Shown here: positions 24,578 to 44,205 of the stretch, piece by piece
How the letters are laid out: every line of letters begins with the position of its first letter
How positions within the stretch are numbered: the first letter of the stretch is position 1
DNA from: a virus
IMG/VR virus record: IMGVR_UViG_3300009508_001156
Location: 47,069 to 111,068 of that record
Reading direction: 5' to 3' (one strand)
Length of the DNA stretch: 64,000 nucleotides
The notes under the pieces: generated by a model
The model's input: the letters and a program-made list of their open reading frames with translations, nothing else
Told to the model about the DNA's origin: nothing
Database searches by the model: none
Made by a program: the position numbers and the translations under genes

Positions 24578-27500
24578 TTAAATATCCGCTCTTAGAGTTT
24601 GGTTATCAATTCTGCTAATAATTTCTATATCATTAACAGAAGCAGTACTAATGAATAATTCATTTGACTCTGCTTTAACTTGGAATAACTCTCCAAATTT
24701 ACCTGAAATATTCTTGGGCAATATAACAATACTGCCTATGTTACTACCTAATTTCTGATGAATGTATGTGCTCAATTCTGTAAAATAAAATGTTTCACCA
24801 AACTCCCAATTATTAACGTCAAAATATTCGTTAATTGTCGATATAATGCCACTTTTTAACTCATTATCACTTATCTGGTCGCTGAGTTTAACAACACGAA
24901 ATTTAGCTTTAAACTCTTCATCTGCTTGATTCCCAAACAACAATTTAAACTTTGAGCTGCGGAACACTAATGTATCGCTAGCAGTCTTGTATGTATTTAG
25001 TCCTGAAAATTCCAGGCTTAGTTGATCGGTGGTTGGCTCTATGGGAAACTCTCCTGATTGATTGGATTTCCATCTGTTAACCAAATCGTTATAGCTTTGC
25101 GTTAATAAAATCATTTCCACTATGTTACTAATGCTAGGATCAACACGTACACTACTGCTAGCATTGTGCTGCCATCTAATAATTCCGTTTGTCGTGCTGT
25201 CTGTTGCAGTGTTTTGATTTTTACCTCTACCGATACGTACAAAGTAGTCTGAGGTTTCTAGCACTAAGAGTTCAGTGTCGCTTGTACTAACTCGTGTTAC
25301 TTGAAAAACTTTTCCCGAACCTACGCTAAAAATAACTAAGCCTGCTGCTGAACTAATGTTAATAAACAGATTCGCTACAGCATCATTCTTGACAATGATC
25401 CATTTTAGGTCACTAAAACTATATATGTCTGTATAACGCAAAGGCGTAACAGTGCCTGCAGTATTATTAATTAATAAATTATCCTCACGTCTAAAATCAG
25501 CAATAACGCCGCTCACTGGAATATCATAACTAGTGCCGTCAAAATCTTTGTAGTATTCAAACAGCACGTAGTCTTCTGGATTAACATACTCTGAGAATTG
25601 TAAAGGACGATCAGGCACCAAATCTCTATCGGTATCAATAGGTGCTACTTTAACTTTTCTAGGATCAACATACCCATCAGATTCTTTAAAAGTGTCTATT
25701 AGTTCCCAATCAATTGGAACTGACAGTTTTTCTTTATTGGTAATGTATCTTAAAACTAACTTGTCTCTGCTTACTGCGCCAGTGATATCTGAACTGGAAT
25801 GTAGATCATGATTTTGAATATTTCTGTATTCAATGTTTCCTGTTTCAGTTACTGGATTATAATCTAACAAATATAATCGACCGACAGTGCTAGAGTCTAA
25901 ACTGTTACCACCCTCGCCATAGCTATATGGTACACCGCCTTCTTCTGCTTTAAATATTACTTCGTCTGTGCCAGGGACGCCATTATTAGGTAATTGCCTG
26001 TATGCAATAAATGGCGTGCCGGTGCTTTCTACTACATTAACACCAAATGTGGTATTATTAAAAGGCACTGTGATTTTACTAGGCAACACACTTATAAGTC
26101 CAGTATTAGCTGCGATAACCAAGTTACTTTCACTTGCAAGGGCGCCAGTTTTAAAATACACATTCAATCCGGTAGACGCTTCGCTTACATATTGATTATT
26201 GTTTGTAATACTAACCAAGCTGCTGTTTATTGGTTTCAACAAACCAAAATTACTCACCCATTGAGCTTCTAAATCTTTCCAAGTAGTGGCTCTGGTTTTA
26301 AGCGGAAGGTTAGCACTAATTCCAATAGGCTCAAATGTGGTTCCAGTAAAACTGTTTAAAAATGTAGTGCCTTGCCAACTGAATGTTTCGGTATCACCGC
26401 TTCGTGTATTAACTGTGGTAAAAGTAATTTTGTCTTTTATTGTGCCTGAATTTTTCACATTATAAAAACGGATATCGTCCCTGCTTTGAACTACATAATC
26501 ATTTCCTCTTAGGGTAACATCATATCTATAACTGAATTGATCTACAGGAGAGTAATTTAATAATACTAACCAACTGTATGCGCCAGCTTGGCCATTATCT
26601 AATGCAAACTTTCCTGCCTTGCTATCTGCTGTCAGTAAACTGTCTGGAATAATGTAAAAAGTGTCTGTTTGTAAATTATAGCCTAGGCCAAAACTTCTTT
26701 TGTTACGTATTTCAGTTTGTATTAACTCTGCTTCAGCAACAGTAAAAAGTTTTCTCAAACTAACAATTACTTCACAAGCCTGCCAAGTTGCCTCTATTTC
26801 TTCACTAAGTGTCCAAGGACCAACTGATGTGTTTACACCTGCGCTAAGTGCTCCGCTATTTTCCACATTAATAATCCTACACCACTTGTATTCTGAGCTA
26901 TCTATAGGATTAACAAACTTAATAAAGTTGTTTTGTTTTAGAATTTCTGTTTTGCCTGCAACATTGTTAACTAATATGTTCCTTGTGCCTGTGGTAAAAG
27001 TTTCAGTTAAATAGCCGGTCTTGCTGCGTTCTGCACTTGGTAATGGATTCCATAACACATTGTCTGCTTCGCTGAATTCGAACACATCTACAATACCGTT
27101 CTTAGCAGGATCAATCCAAATGTTTCTCAGTGTGTAATAAACAAAATTATTTACAGGTTGTCCTTTTAATCTGTTAGGGATAATACTAGTTGCTAGTTCT
27201 AGAGGAGTTACATTGCTGTTAACAATAATAGTCTCTGTAGGATTCCTATCGTCAATGTATAGATATGCATCGTCAGCAAAAGTGTCTATGTTTTGAAATG
27301 TACCTGTAGGATCGTTAATGTCAACATAACGACTGTGTCCAGCATGAGTTTTGTTAGTTGCTTTTAGTTTTAATATATTATTACTTTGACTCAGCGGGAA
27401 AACATTATAATCCTGTGCATTGACCATTCTGTTTTGCGTATAAAATGTTTGCGGTGCACGTTCTTTGATCGCCGCAATGCTTTCTGCTGGTAAACTGTTA

Positions 27501-28714
27501 TTAACAGTATATTGCAAGCTACAGGTGAGGCTGAGCGTGTGCTTTTCGCCAATATTGTTTGTATACGGCACACTCAATACTATGTTACGTGCATTTTGTG
27601 GTTGTATGCTATAACGCTCTGGGTCACTAGTTCTGTGCCATAATCTATATACACCTTGAGGGACATTAGCAAAGTTACCATCTGAATATCTAACACGTAT
27701 TCCGCTAGTACCTAAATTTTCCACGCTGTACAAGTTTCTGCTGTTTAATGCTAATGTGTTATATGTTAAAGTTTGACCGACAGTGTTGGGAACTTTTGTC
27801 CATTTGTTAACCACAGCACCAATAGTATCTATTTCTTGCAGGTAAACATCGCTTTCGTTAATGTTTGCTACTGCAAGATCTTGTGTACGATTTTCCACTG
27901 GAGTAGTGTAATTAAAATCTAAAAAGTTCAATATACCTTGTCGGAAAAACAAAAAGAATCCAGTGTCTGCACTGCTAGACCCTTTGCTATCATTTCGATA
28001 TATTAAATTAAATAAATTAGTTGGATCAGGATGTCTTTCATAAAAGTATCCTTCGTCCTCAAAATCTGGATTACACACATTAAAGTTTCTTTCTGTTCCG
28101 TTTATTCTAAGTGTAAAATTATACGCAATAGGGGAACCTGCAGGAGTGTTTAACTGATATAGTTCAGTTTTAACATTTCCAACTTCACCACTTTTAATTG
28201 GTGAAGTGAAACGATTAGTCTTACTCATTGCACTGTTTAAAATAGTAATAAACTGTTCGTAGCTTTGTGTATTGTTTTCATCGTCCCAATATATATTTCT
28301 ATTATTCAGTGTAGTACCTAAACTATCTGTGATGTTTTCGGTGGTTTTAATGTTAACTATTTTTAACAATCCGCTCGCTGGCACATTTCTTTTAGGATTA
28401 TATCCTAACATACGTGCTAGTTTGAACACCGAATCTCTGCGTTCTGCAGTTTCTAAAAAGTTTTCTCTGGAATTTAAATCCATCCTAAACGCTAAACTCT
28501 GCGCTAAGTATGCTAATAATTCAATGATACTAATGAATTCACTACTTTCGATGTAGTCATTAAAGTTTTCTGGAAAATTTGTTTTAATATAGTCTACCAT
28601 TGCAAGACGCATGGTATCAAAGTCATACGCCTGAAAATTAACATTATTAAAAACTTTATATGCTATTTTCCAATCTTCAGCAGCAAACAAGTTTTGTTGT
28701 CTAGATACGGTCAT
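24578..28714 (-). CDS. 6: Baseplate wedge protein gp6 (T4-like), 1,378 aa
   Basis: This is a core baseplate wedge subunit, which in T4 dimerises to form the ring around the hub and triggers sheath contraction. The N-terminus (EDWKIAYKVFNNVNFQAYDF, then FISIIELLAYLAQSLAFRMDLNSRENF and LARMLGYNPKRNVPASG) is the characteristic gp6 opening of T4-like marine phages. At 1,378 aa it is about twice T4 gp6 (660 aa), as is usual in that group. The C-terminus (FDVNNWEFGETFYFTELSTY, then NIGSIVILP) keeps the baseplate J-like pattern. The start ATG at 28714 follows AAGGAA, 11 nt after gp25 ends, so gp25 and gp6 form one operon. The giant gene follows 3 nt later. Confidence 0.9.
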   Translation of the reverse strand: MTVSRQQNLFAAEDWKIAYKVFNNVNFQAYDFDTMRLAMVDYIKTNFPENFNDYIESSEFISIIELLAYLAQSLAFRMDLNSRENFLETAERRDSVFKLARMLGYNPKRNVPASGLLKIVNIKTTENITDSLGTTLNNRNIYWDDENNTQSYEQFITILNSAMSKTNRFTSPIKSGEVGNVKTELYQLNTPAGSPIAYNFTLRINGTERNFNVCNPDFEDEGYFYERHPDPTNLFNLIYRNDSKGSSSADTGFFLFFRQGILNFLDFNYTTPVENRTQDLAVANINESDVYLQEIDTIGAVVNKWTKVPNTVGQTLTYNTLALNSRNLYSVENLGTSGIRVRYSDGNFANVPQGVYRLWHRTSDPERYSIQPQNARNIVLSVPYTNNIGEKHTLSLTCSLQYTVNNSLPAESIAAIKERAPQTFYTQNRMVNAQDYNVFPLSQSNNILKLKATNKTHAGHSRYVDINDPTGTFQNIDTFADDAYLYIDDRNPTETIIVNSNVTPLELATSIIPNRLKGQPVNNFVYYTLRNIWIDPAKNGIVDVFEFSEADNVLWNPLPSAERSKTGYLTETFTTGTRNILVNNVAGKTEILKQNNFIKFVNPIDSSEYKWCRIINVENSGALSAGVNTSVGPWTLSEEIEATWQACEVIVSLRKLFTVAEAELIQTEIRNKRSFGLGYNLQTDTFYIIPDSLLTADSKAGKFALDNGQAGAYSWLVLLNYSPVDQFSYRYDVTLRGNDYVVQSRDDIRFYNVKNSGTIKDKITFTTVNTRSGDTETFSWQGTTFLNSFTGTTFEPIGISANLPLKTRATTWKDLEAQWVSNFGLLKPINSSLVSITNNNQYVSEASTGLNVYFKTGALASESNLVIAANTGLISVLPSKITVPFNNTTFGVNVVESTGTPFIAYRQLPNNGVPGTDEVIFKAEEGGVPYSYGEGGNSLDSSTVGRLYLLDYNPVTETGNIEYRNIQNHDLHSSSDITGAVSRDKLVLRYITNKEKLSVPIDWELIDTFKESDGYVDPRKVKVAPIDTDRDLVPDRPLQFSEYVNPEDYVLFEYYKDFDGTSYDIPVSGVIADFRREDNLLINNTAGTVTPLRYTDIYSFSDLKWIIVKNDAVANLFINISSAAGLVIFSVGSGKVFQVTRVSTSDTELLVLETSDYFVRIGRGKNQNTATDSTTNGIIRWQHNASSSVRVDPSISNIVEMILLTQSYNDLVNRWKSNQSGEFPIEPTTDQLSLEFSGLNTYKTASDTLVFRSSKFKLLFGNQADEEFKAKFRVVKLSDQISDNELKSGIISTINEYFDVNNWEFGETFYFTELSTYIHQKLGSNIGSIVILPKNISGKFGELFQVKAESNELFISTASVNDIEIISRIDNQTLRADI

Positions 28715-39590: not shown

Positions 39591-39758
39591 ATAGCCTTAT
39601 GTTATTGTTAAATGATATCAATACAATACAAGTGAAGGTTTAATGTTTCCGATTAAAAAATATTTCCAACAAGTGAATGAACGTAACGAAGTGAAGTGAA
39701 TGAATGCAGTGGGAAAAGGTCCGTAGGACCTATTACTTGATAGAAAACATAATTAAAA

Positions 39759-39786
39759 ACAAAAAAAACAGATCGAACAATCTGTT
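39759..39786 (-). terminator. Rho-independent terminator of the tail chaperone transcript
   Basis: On the minus strand AACAGAT, loop TGTTCG, ATCTGTT is followed by TTTTTTTGTTTTT. It lies about 30 nt after the stop of the -1 frame (39817), not after the zero-frame stop (40038). This supports the extended frame as part of the gene. Confidence 0.8.
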
Positions 39787-39816: not shown

Positions 39817-40886
39817 TTAAAGCATTTCGTTAGTTGGTTTACCTGATTTTGCTCTGTTGCGATCGTTAATGACAGAGATGCAGAGAGATCTTTGCTCAGG
39901 ACTCATTTGCCAAGACTCAGTCCAGCTAATACTTCCTTCTGAATATACTGCAATTTCTACTATGGATTTTTCTAGTTTTGCCGCTTCCTGCTTTAGCCGG
40001 TTTAAGAGGTTCAGAATATCCTCACCGTCTGCTTGTGCTAGGAAGCTGTGAAAAAATTTACAGGATCAAACCCTATATCGTGTTCAAATGTGTGGTTACA
40101 TTTTTCACATTCTAACATTATCTTTCTTTGTACACCAATTTGATTAACCTTGGTGATACTTTCTTCGATGGTATTACCGATGCTACTATCGCAGTTTTCT
40201 AAAAATTCTCGGATAGTTTCTCTGTTAGTAACTACAAATGCTTCGCCGTCTGCTTCTTCCACGCCGCGCACACTGCTCACTGAATCAACTATTAAGTCGA
40301 AGTTAAGTGCAGCAATTTGCATAAAGTTTTTATTAAACGCTTTTAACTGCTCTAGTTCGTCGTCTATGTTTTGTAAACTTTGCAAACTGCGTGTGCTTTG
40401 GAAGTTTGTAATGCCTGCCTTAACTGTGCTTTCGTATGTAAACGGTCTAACTTCTATTATTAAATCATTTGGCGTTGTAAATTTATATGTTTCTTCTATT
40501 ACAGTCATGTTTTGTAATGCTTGCTCGATGCTAGCCACGCCACTTACAGGTTCAGAACATTCTGGACACTCGGTGCTTATATCTATATCATCGCCTGAAG
40601 TAGCAGCTTGTATTGCTATTAGTAATGCATCTATGTCGTTACTGACTAGTGATCTAGGTTTTTTTACTGCTGGAACACAGCTTGCTATCACTTGTGCAAC
40701 AGCTTCGCCGTTAAGCAATGCATCAGGATTTTTCATAATCATTTCATCTTTTGCTGTCATTGCAAACACGGGCAGCTCTTTGTTTTCTGGTAACACTAGT
40801 ACATCTTCAGAATAAAACTTACCTAGACTGGGTACTTGCACATACAGTTTAGGTGTCCTGTAATACTTACTTAACGGGTTACTCAT
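39817..40886 (-). CDS. Predicted -1 frameshift product of the chaperone gene (about 356 aa)
   Basis: A -1 shift at 40056-40050 bypasses the stop at 40038 and adds 77 residues up to TAA at 39819-39817. The extension contains DILNLLNRLKQEAAKLEKS and ends with WTESWQMSPEQRSLCISVIN followed by a basic tail. 'SW...MSPEQR..l...in' resembles the T-part C-terminal signature of phage tail-assembly chaperones. The extension frame has no early start codon of its own, is open for its whole length, and ends just before the terminator. By analogy with lambda gpGT, the longer form would be the minor product that recruits tail-tube subunits to the tape measure. The frameshift is inferred, not demonstrated. 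Confidence 0.65.
40038..40886 (-). CDS. T4_baseplate-family protein (gp26/gp51-like); probable tail-assembly chaperone, zero-frame product (282 aa)
   Basis: The N-terminus (NPLSKYYRTPKLYVQVPSLG, then LPVFAMTAKDEMIMKNPDAL and IDALLIAIQAATSGDDI) is typical of the T4 gp26/gp51 family (Pfam T4_baseplate, by recall). A zinc-ribbon-like pair is visible: CPEC near residue 107 and CEKC near the C-terminus. The family is annotated as baseplate hub subunit or assembly catalyst. Its location immediately beside the tape-measure gene, and a -1 slippery site eight codons before the stop, fit the tail-assembly chaperones (lambda G/GT type) better. It has its own GATAAATA late promoter, a leader of about 52 nt and a terminator. 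The ATG at 40886 has only a weak ribosome-binding site. Confidence 0.85.
   Translation of the reverse strand: MSNPLSKYYRTPKLYVQVPSLGKFYSEDVLVLPENKELPVFAMTAKDEMIMKNPDALLNGEAVAQVIASCVPAVKKPRSLVSNDIDALLIAIQAATSGDDIDISTECPECSEPVSGVASIEQALQNMTVIEETYKFTTPNDLIIEVRPFTYESTVKAGITNFQSTRSLQSLQNIDDELEQLKAFNKNFMQIAALNFDLIVDSVSSVRGVEEADGEAFVVTNRETIREFLENCDSSIGNTIEESITKVNQIGVQRKIMLECEKCNHTFEHDIGFDPVNFFTAS
40050..40059 (-). promoter_or_regulatory. Programmed -1 ribosomal frameshift signal
   Basis: In the zero frame the codons are GTA AAT TTT TTC. Two overlapping -1 heptamers exist: A AAT TTT (40059-40053) and T TTT TTC (40056-40050). An SD-like AGGG lies 14 nt upstream (40074-40071). A possible downstream stem pairs GGT and GAGG (40026-40020) with CCTC (40009-40006) and ACC (40001-39999). 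Confidence 0.65.
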
Positions 40887-40980: not shown

Positions 40981-43900
40981 ATGGCCGACGTTCAATTACC
41001 AGACGGAAATGTAGCAAGAGTACCTGATTTTGCATTGGAAAAAACACAAGAGGATATGAAAAAACTCTTGCAAGCCATGGTGGGTTCAGATAAAAATGCA
41101 CTTAAAGTTTACGGAAAATTAGTTGATCTTGCTAAGGAACAAACAGACGTTACAGAAAGTGTAGCCGAAGAAGCAAAAGCATTACAAAAACAGCAACTCA
41201 AAGCCACAGAAAGCATTGCAAGTGCTGCTAGCAAAGGTAAAATCTTAGGCGATACCCTGTTCAACGGAGCTATGAAAGCAGACGCAATGCTAACTAAAAG
41301 CTTTTTGAGTTTAGGCAGCTCTGTAATGACTGTCGTTGGTACAATGTTTGAAGGTGCTCAGCAGGTTGGTAACGAACTACTCGAGTTACAGAAAGCAGGC
41401 GTAGGCTTTACTGATGCAACTGGTAGTGCAGAAAAATTAATTGCAGATCTCAGTTACTTAGGTATGACTGCCGGCTCCGCAGCTGATCTAATGAAAAATT
41501 TCAGTGGCGTTGTCCAGGTTATGGGCAAGACAGGTTTTGCTGACATACAAAAAACGTTCAACAACATCAGTGATAACGGTAATAAATTTGGTTTAAGCAT
41601 AGCGGAATCAGCTGAAGTATTAGGAGAAGATTTAGAGAGGCGTAAACAGTTAGGCGCATTAGGCGCAATTGATAGCCAGAGGCAAGCACAGAGATCAGCA
41701 GAATTGTATGGCATGCAGATGGAAGCTGCACAAGCTCTAGGACAAAGTGTAAAAGAAGTAAGAGACAAAAATGCCAAACTTTTAGACAGTAATTTTAACT
41801 TTCAGATTTCAAGAGCCAGAACAGTTGCTAGATTAGGTGATGAGGCAGGTGCAAAATATCTAGAAGCTGCCGAACAACTGGGTACACAGTTTGCGGGCAT
41901 GGGATTAGCAGACGGCGCATCGGATGCAATATTAACTGCTATGAGTGAACCTGCAGCATTCTTGGCCCAAGGCGGTAGTGAACTTTATACTGCACTGAGT
42001 GCAATGGGTGCTGGCGGCAAAGAAATTTCAAATGAAATGCAAACCATCGGCAAGTTAATGAATGGCAGTGCTGCCGAGCAGGAACAAGGCATGGCCAAGA
42101 TGAAAGAATTTGGTCCAATGTTGCAAAACAATTTAAGTGAATTGTTGGGCGATGAGAAAGCACTCAGCATGTTCCAAAATTTAGTTAACACCGGATCACC
42201 AGCAGCAGGCATGATGCAATCTCTTTTTGAAAGTGCAGGTTTAGCAAAAAGTGCATTAGCAGGCGCCGCCAATTCAGCAGGCAGCGTTCAAAGTGGATTA
42301 GCAAAAGCAGCCCAAGCATATGATGCAGCAATGAATACTATCAGTGGCACAATGAGTGGAGCAATGACAGATTTAAGTGCAGCTTTTGCTGGTCCAGCAG
42401 GTGCATTTGCTGATGCGCTAGTGAAAGACACTATATTACGCAATAAGGACGGCGAGATACTGGACAAAAACGGTAAAGCCATGATGCGAGAGATAGAAGT
42501 TAAAGACGCAGCTACTGGCGAAATGAAGAAACAACTGGTTGCTGTTAAGGATTATAACGAGCTCAGCCAAGAACAGAAAAAACAAATGTCCGGCACACAA
42601 AGTGTGATGGGCGCATTTAAGGATGCTATTCAAACTATACGGGTAACAATCATGGACAGCTTTGGCATGATTGGCGGTGATACTACTAATTTTGCAGAAA
42701 TAATTAGAAACAAGATGGTTCCTGCAATTCAGGATTTTGCAGAATGGTTTAAGAGTGGCGGATGGAACAGCATAAAGAGTGCATTTACGAATCTTAAAGA
42801 TGGTATAATAGCTGTAACCGCACCGTTTAGGGTTATCTACAATTTATTTACTGGTGACTTTACTGGTGCAGTAGAAAGCATGGGTGATGTATTTGGCAGT
42901 GTAGGCGCAGTAGTGGGCGGTGTAGTAGGTAGCTTTTTATTAGTAACAAAAACACTTAAACTATATAATGCTGCAATGGCACTTGGCGGAAAAGCTAAAG
43001 GTTTTCTAGGCGGCGGCGCTACCAAAGCTATAGGCGGGAACGCTCCTGTAGGGAACGCAGTTGCAGGCAAGGCAGGCAAAGGCGGCGGCCTAGGCGGTAT
43101 GCTTATGGGCGCAGCTAACGGACTAAAAGCAATAGGCAAAGTTCCCATGGCTGCAATAGGTAAAGCAGCACTGATATTAGGCGCCATTACACTTGCAACT
43201 ATTGGATTTGCTACAGCATTAAACATTGCAAAAGATGCGTTTGTACCTTTTGGGAAGATGATTAAGGAGATTCTAGAAGGAGTTGCGCCCATTGTAAGCG
43301 CATTTGGTGATGTGCTTAAAAGTGTTTTTGAAGGAGTTGGAAATGCGCTAGAATCTATATTCTCTGGATTTGAAGGGCTTGGCGCAGGTATTAAAAGCAT
43401 ACTAGAAGGTGTAGGCATAGCTGTTGAAAAAATTGGCGGAACCATAATGGGTGTAGTTGGTGGAATTGCAGAAGGCATTAGCAGCGTTATCAATGCAGTC
43501 AAAGGAGATAGCGAAACTTCTGTTTTAGATGCACAAACCGCCGCAATCGAACGACTTAGCATAATTCCAGCGGATACAATGTACGGAATTGCTAGTGCAA
43601 TAGATGCAATTACGTTCTCGTTAGGGTATCTTGGCGAGATTTCAGATGATATTGACACAGGAGAGTTAGAAGATCAAGTTAACATTTTTAGTAGATTATC
43701 CACTCTAGATGCTGCTGGTATTGCTGCTTCTGCTGTTAGCTTAGGTGCAATGGCAGACGTGTATGCACGATTCGCTAACTTAGACCATGCTGCACTAGCT
43801 GCATCAGCAGACGCAATAAGTAATATTAACGATGCATCTAGCCCTGGACTACTATCACAAGGAATGAGCTTTTTGGGTTTTGGGGCTAACGATGAAGAAA

Positions 43901-44205
43901 CCCCTGCTCTTGAAGCAAATAGCAAGAAAAAATTTGCTGACCAAGCACAAGTAGAAAAACTTACAGCAGCAAAAGGGACTGAGACAATTAATAAAACACC
44001 AGCTGGCCAATCTCTTAACGCACAAAACGATGCAAATACAGCAGCTAACAATGCCACGCAAACACAAAGTACTGGTAATAACAACTCTGGAGAAAATTCT
44101 GCAACAACTAACGTTGAAAGTATTATGGCAGCAATTGCATCTAACACTGCAAAAACAAACAAGTTAATATCTGCCCTCAACACCACGATCGAAAATTCGA
44201 CTTAG
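40981..44205 (+). CDS. Tail tape measure protein (1,074 aa)
   Basis: It sets tail length by spanning the tube lumen, and is likely ejected with the DNA. Evidence: long size, an Ala/Gly/Lys/Gln-rich and mainly helical composition with coiled-coil stretches over about 1-500, and two hydrophobic segments. These are VGAVVGGVVGSFLLVTK near 640 and a longer one near 728-750 (AALILGAITLATIGFATALN), as is typical of tape measures that interact with the host membrane. The C-terminal 120 residues are Asn/Thr/Ala-rich and disordered-looking. T4's equivalent is gp29 (590 aa). It is divergent from the chaperone gene, whereas in most tailed phages the chaperone is directly upstream on the same strand. The Shine-Dalgarno is weak. 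Confidence 0.85.
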   Translation: MADVQLPDGNVARVPDFALEKTQEDMKKLLQAMVGSDKNALKVYGKLVDLAKEQTDVTESVAEEAKALQKQQLKATESIASAASKGKILGDTLFNGAMKADAMLTKSFLSLGSSVMTVVGTMFEGAQQVGNELLELQKAGVGFTDATGSAEKLIADLSYLGMTAGSAADLMKNFSGVVQVMGKTGFADIQKTFNNISDNGNKFGLSIAESAEVLGEDLERRKQLGALGAIDSQRQAQRSAELYGMQMEAAQALGQSVKEVRDKNAKLLDSNFNFQISRARTVARLGDEAGAKYLEAAEQLGTQFAGMGLADGASDAILTAMSEPAAFLAQGGSELYTALSAMGAGGKEISNEMQTIGKLMNGSAAEQEQGMAKMKEFGPMLQNNLSELLGDEKALSMFQNLVNTGSPAAGMMQSLFESAGLAKSALAGAANSAGSVQSGLAKAAQAYDAAMNTISGTMSGAMTDLSAAFAGPAGAFADALVKDTILRNKDGEILDKNGKAMMREIEVKDAATGEMKKQLVAVKDYNELSQEQKKQMSGTQSVMGAFKDAIQTIRVTIMDSFGMIGGDTTNFAEIIRNKMVPAIQDFAEWFKSGGWNSIKSAFTNLKDGIIAVTAPFRVIYNLFTGDFTGAVESMGDVFGSVGAVVGGVVGSFLLVTKTLKLYNAAMALGGKAKGFLGGGATKAIGGNAPVGNAVAGKAGKGGGLGGMLMGAANGLKAIGKVPMAAIGKAALILGAITLATIGFATALNIAKDAFVPFGKMIKEILEGVAPIVSAFGDVLKSVFEGVGNALESIFSGFEGLGAGIKSILEGVGIAVEKIGGTIMGVVGGIAEGISSVINAVKGDSETSVLDAQTAAIERLSIIPADTMYGIASAIDAITFSLGYLGEISDDIDTGELEDQVNIFSRLSTLDAAGIAASAVSLGAMADVYARFANLDHAALAASADAISNINDASSPGLLSQGMSFLGFGANDEETPALEANSKKKFADQAQVEKLTAAKGTETINKTPAGQSLNAQNDANTAANNATQTQSTGNNNSGENSATTNVESIMAAIASNTAKTNKLISALNTTIENST

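Follow-up and report, generated by a model that had tools for sequence, protein, structure and literature searches.

The window (the whole 64,000-nt stretch of viral DNA analyzed here) contains, on its minus strand, a gene of the T4 gp26/gp51 family with two overlapping slippery heptamers near its 3′ end, and a large divergent gene beside it. The features are as follows:

40038..40886, minus strand: 0-frame gene with a T4 gp26-like N domain (putative TAC-N, 282 aa), assigned by PF12322 and phrog_150
40053..40059, minus strand: slippery heptamer A AAT TTT, in the X XXY YYZ phase of the 0 frame
40050..40056, minus strand: slippery heptamer T TTT TTC, overlapping A AAT TTT, in X XXY YYZ phase
39817..40049, minus strand: −1 frame extension resembling the gp51 C-terminus (T domain), ending at TAA 39819-39817; predicted fusion TAC-NC, 356 aa
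39983..40046, minus strand: candidate stimulatory RNA stem with arms 40046-40040 and 39989-39983, from fold z and covariation
39760..39786, minus strand: AU-rich hairpin followed by a U tract, probably a terminator, fold z=−2.95 against shuffles
40981..44205, plus strand: probable tape measure protein, 1074 aa, divergent and 95 bp from the chaperone gene

The slip site and its genomic neighborhood

The 282-aa protein matches PF12322 (T4_baseplate, the gp26/gp51 family) with 61.9 bits against a curated cut-off of 24.5 (E=9e-17), and phrog_150 with E=5e-20. The 3′ end of the 40886-40038 ORF reads GTA AAT TTT TTC ACA GCT TCC TAG, in which TAG is the 0-frame stop. The two heptamers that had been proposed for this position, in tandem as AAATTTTTTC, are present five to six codons upstream of the stop and in the correct 0-frame phase. 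Among the 19,891 codons of window ORFs of at least 150 aa, in-frame T TTT TTC occurs once, at the slip site, and in-frame A AAT TTT eight times. The −1 frame had been described as open and as lacking an early start, and both statements agree with what was found: no stop occurs before the TAA at 39819-39817, and about 45 codons past the 0-frame stop are free of ATG, GTG and TTG, the first such codon being the ATG of the MSPEQR stretch.

A strong terminator had been predicted about 30 nt past the −1 stop. An 8-bp hairpin followed by a U tract does lie there (39786-39767), but it is AU-rich with two G-C pairs, and it is not listed by a terminator scan requiring three G-C pairs. Beyond it, in non-coding sequence, is a perfect inverted repeat, AGGTCC GTA GGACCT (39717-39731).

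On the other side of the gene, the 1074-aa protein had no match in Pfam or PHROG, and resembles a PA5oct virion structural protein encoded at the same place (blastp, 2e-11). Position, size and this weak similarity suggest that the 40981-44205 product is probably the tape measure. The proposed adjacency of chaperone and tape measure thus holds as to distance; the orientation, however, is divergent, and the tape measure candidate is not downstream as in lambda. The same opposite orientation was observed in 37 of the 38 loci with a hit in marineA, the closer of the two groups of marine relatives described below.

Conservation of the heptamers and selection on the −1 frame

A scan of IMG/VR yielded 80 related marine loci (34-100% identity), which comprise a close group, marineA (53-100%), and a distant group, marineB (34-39%). 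At least one in-frame heptamer (A AAT TTT, T TTT TTC or both) was found in all IMG/VR relatives containing the gene end (80 loci), and in each of them the −1 frame encodes a similar protein and is open wherever the contig is complete. The −1 frames of two loci (L066 and L081) look short because the contig ends there, and one further contig (L050) is cut before the 0-frame stop. A AAT TTT is in frame in all close relatives; some marineA members carry TCC in place of TTC, leaving A AAT TTT alone (AATTTTTCC), and T TTT TTC is the sole heptamer in some marineB members. Judged from sequence, A AAT TTT and T TTT TTC are exchangeable as putative slip sites among the marine relatives. At one locus (L018, 2400-2451) the usual 0-frame stop is TCG, extending the 0-frame protein by 27 nt, and the −1 frame is unchanged.

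The site is also found well outside the marine set. T TTT TTC is kept in seven isolated jumbo phages (Atu_ph07, Phosso, 121Q, RaK2, GAP32, PA5oct and SCTP-2), and RAS14 and XacN1, likewise jumbo phages, have T TTT TTT at the slip site. A cyanophage query recovered 82 loci, of which 79 had T TTT TTC one codon 5′ of the stop together with an open −1 frame. Contig ends cut two of the remaining three, and S-SCSM1 is left as a genuine exception. In S-SCSM1 (L092, 3660-3874) T TTT TTC is kept and the T domain is in frame +1, and slippage by −1 would run into an immediate stop, possibly as a result of a sequencing error or of a switch to a separate start. Heptamer and open −1 frame were also recovered in Schizotequatrovirus, where the heptamer is T TTT TTC, and in Moby, SRB7757 and Melnitz. 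In Melnitz (L192, 2180-2200) T TTT TTT directly adjoins the stop codon TAA, and slippage and termination would therefore compete. In Ackermannviridae and Cygsa01 (L093, L191, L193 and L094) the T domain follows the N domain immediately and no heptamer is present; these phages seem to use a separate T-domain ORF. Stop and start overlap as TAATG in VAP7 and Cygsa01, and Kevin and Kuttervirus have ATC/ATT at the position of the ATG. Over about 170 loci, the expectation that homologs would retain the heptamer and be free of −1 frame stops holds with few exceptions.

Codon choice at the site was examined in 111 genes remaining after removal of near-duplicates, 104 of which have Phe-Phe at the slip site. 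This pair is coded TTT-TTC in 104/104 genes, as against 1 of 87 Phe-Phe pairs elsewhere in the same 111-gene set, and in the dereplicated genes the codon preceding it always ends in T. Median dN/dS values of the extension were 0.16, 0.08 and 0.12 (about 0.16 for the window lineage), near those of the 0-frame body, and the ratio was below 0.5 in 119/119 pairs, which share ancestry and hence are not independent. As estimated from these substitution ratios, the −1 extension is under purifying selection.

Alternatively, the selected −1 frame could yield a small protein of its own, through reinitiation or coupling past the 0-frame stop, and no fusion at all. The ATG overlapping the stop in Cygsa01 and VAP7 would fit such an arrangement, as would the tiny separate ‘gp51’ genes annotated in cyanophages by the databases. 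However, the startless stretch at the head of the window extension speaks against it, an internal start is ruled out by the lack of any start position common to the relatives, T4 gp51 is a fused protein, and separate synthesis leaves both the invariant heptamer and the TTT-TTC codons unexplained. We consider this explanation very improbable and favor translation of the extension as part of a fusion.

RNA structure downstream of the slip site

The candidate stem begins 3 nt past T TTT TTC (6 nt past A AAT TTT) and reaches the first base of the 0-frame stop. The 86 nt 3′ of the window slip site gave a fold z of −2.60, with 0 of 200 shuffles as stable. Among dereplicated relatives, mean fold z after the slip site was −2.2 in marineA (70 nt), −2.1 in marineB (45 nt) and −1.6 in cyanophages (45 nt), as compared with −0.15 to −0.46 for control windows in the same genes. 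A short 45-nt hairpin was considered for the window lineage and rejected, as no excess structure was found at that length; the stem spans about 64 nt.

In marineA, GCUUC[C/U]U pairs with A[G/A]GAAGC about 50 nt further on. Columns 22/75 of this group alternate between U-A (10) and C-G (6), at silent or wobble positions of the frames being read, and columns 16/81 between G-C (7) and A-U (5), while the marineB hairpin shows two-sided changes in four pairs. Since the covariation in marineA and marineB does not exceed every control on every measure, stimulation of slippage by the downstream stem is likely rather than shown. The marineA stem arm is absent from its usual place in one subgroup (L025 to L044), which may use another stem arm.

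Cyanophages carry an SD-like GAGGG upstream of the slip site in 64 of 66 cases. This is partly due to a conserved Glu-Gly, although the GAG codon is still favored there (41/66, vs 461/1495 elsewhere). As a stimulator in the window lineage an SD-like element was rejected (2/29, the same as controls).

The six consecutive T of the site could alternatively suggest that RNA polymerase slips on the T run, giving mRNAs of altered length from which the fusion would be translated. Polymerase slips little on T runs this short, however, and in some of the dereplicated close relatives the run is five T long (AATTTTTCC) and A AAT TTT is still in frame. Polymerase slippage would moreover need neither a downstream stem nor the ribosomal phase of the heptamers, and we regard it as extremely improbable compared with slippage by the ribosome.

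Relation to T4 gp26/gp51 and to tail assembly chaperones

A profile of the fusion aligns with T4 gp51 over its full length, N domain and extension included (97.8%, 1e-12), whereas its alignment with T4 gp26 ends at the slip point (98.2%). The family phrog_634 (‘baseplate hub assembly catalyst’) has matches to residues 147-246 of T4 gp51 as well as to the −1 extension of cyanophages; the latter was recovered with 2e-30, and by hhalign to gp51 with 1.7e-8. The window-lineage extension alone aligned weakly with gp51 (hhalign probability 31-48%), and the profile search that had been suggested for it matched no Pfam or PHROG family. Taken alone, this extension is too diverged to match gp51 strongly, and its link to gp51 consequently depends on co-linear alignment of the fusion and on intermediate sequences. 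The window protein had no hit among the Phage_TAC families of Pfam, and a fold search of the PDB with a good model (pLDDT 88) gave no significant match to a known chaperone such as HK97 gp13. The best structure matches of the model in BFVD were T4-type baseplate hub proteins.

T4 gp26 and gp51 share the PF12322 N domain with the window gene, the short product ends at the Phe-Phe site and the long product, gp51, has a C-terminal helical domain. T4 differs in having two separate genes where the window phage has one gene and a slippery site, and in T4 gene 26 the Phe-Phe pair is coded TTC TTT, with no heptamer there. A chaperone extension in the −1 frame of T4 gene 26 was looked for and is absent, the −1 reading entering gene 25. 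The cyanophages (Kyanoviridae) resemble the window phage in T TTT TTC, −1 extension and downstream hairpin, annotated as gp26 plus a tiny ‘gp51’, but usually have one heptamer, placed one codon before the stop, with the GAGGG upstream and a shorter hairpin. The tail assembly chaperones of lambda (gpG/gpGT) and HK97 likewise come in a short form and a longer one made by −1 frameshifting, encoded close to the tape measure gene (PMC5009743); the heptamers are different, no sequence similarity was found, and the window gene is divergent from its tape measure. The lambda tape measure is bound by gpG together with a little gpGT, the −1 frameshift product, whose T part brings in the tube protein (PMC5009743).

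The original prediction held that the T4 annotation as baseplate hub may be incomplete. This is correct and already known: T4 gp26 and gp51 have been listed as hub assembly chaperones, with gp51 absent from the particle (PMC3004832), and Vladimirov, Gautam and Davidson (2022, Virology 566:9-15), as cited in PMC10885494 and PMC12846349, described them as the short and the long form of the tail assembly chaperone. As far as these citations convey the 2022 work, tail assembly chaperones of T4-like phages were identified there and the novelty of the present finding is limited; what is added is a new lineage, the breadth of conservation and the lineage-specific stems. The hub annotation, together with some genetic work that put gp26 in the hub (PMC3004832), could mean that the gene encodes a structural baseplate hub protein only, with products that have no role at the tape measure. 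Against this stand the chaperone listing of both proteins and the missing gp51 in particles, and a short/long pair beside a tape measure gene is the mark of tail assembly chaperones. We therefore find a purely structural role improbable.

The conserved site, the selected extension, the stems and the co-linearity with gp26/gp51 largely support the G/GT-type −1 frameshift reading originally proposed, and the gene is very probably the tail assembly chaperone gene of a marine T4-like phage, making TAC-N (282 aa) and a frameshifted TAC-NC (356 aa). Most ribosomes would terminate at the TAG to give the short product, and some would slip by −1 on the tandem heptamer, aided by the downstream RNA stem, to give TAC-NC, whose extra domain would correspond to the T4 gp51 C-terminus. 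By analogy with lambda gpG/gpGT, the tape measure could be covered by many short and few long copies, which would bring in subunits of the tail tube or the hub. Slippage, its rate and tape measure binding are what we infer here; a lambda-like arrangement, with the divergently encoded 1074-aa protein as tape measure, appears most likely by this analogy.

Whether a single −1 frameshift chaperone was ancestral in the T4 superfamily, the two-gene pair of T4 being derived, seems to us evenly balanced. Lineages would then have swapped slippage aids, the marine lineage using tandem heptamers and a long stem running into the stop codon and the cyanophages an SD-like site and a hairpin, and some would have moved to a separate T-domain ORF. 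A 2016 review of frameshifting treated T4 as an exception among long-tailed phages (PMC5009743). If the frameshift is conserved across the superfamily, this exception would be explained by T4 having split the pair. If the present reading is true, annotation could be corrected in many phage genomes, and the natural variants (tandem or single heptamer, stem, hairpin, split gene) could be used to study how the chaperone ratio is set. According to Sullivan et al. (2010), gp51 in cyanophages reaches only about 20% of normal length, which was left unexplained; it lacks the first 200 residues and yet resembles the gp51 C-terminus (PMC3037559). Conservation of the frameshift would account for this length too, the ‘truncated gp51’ then representing the −1 part of a fusion protein.

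Elsewhere on the minus strand of the window, one uninterrupted reading frame covers 833-24574; at about 7,900 codons it would encode a very large protein by phage standards, and it is followed by an open frame of about 1,380 codons at 24581-28714.
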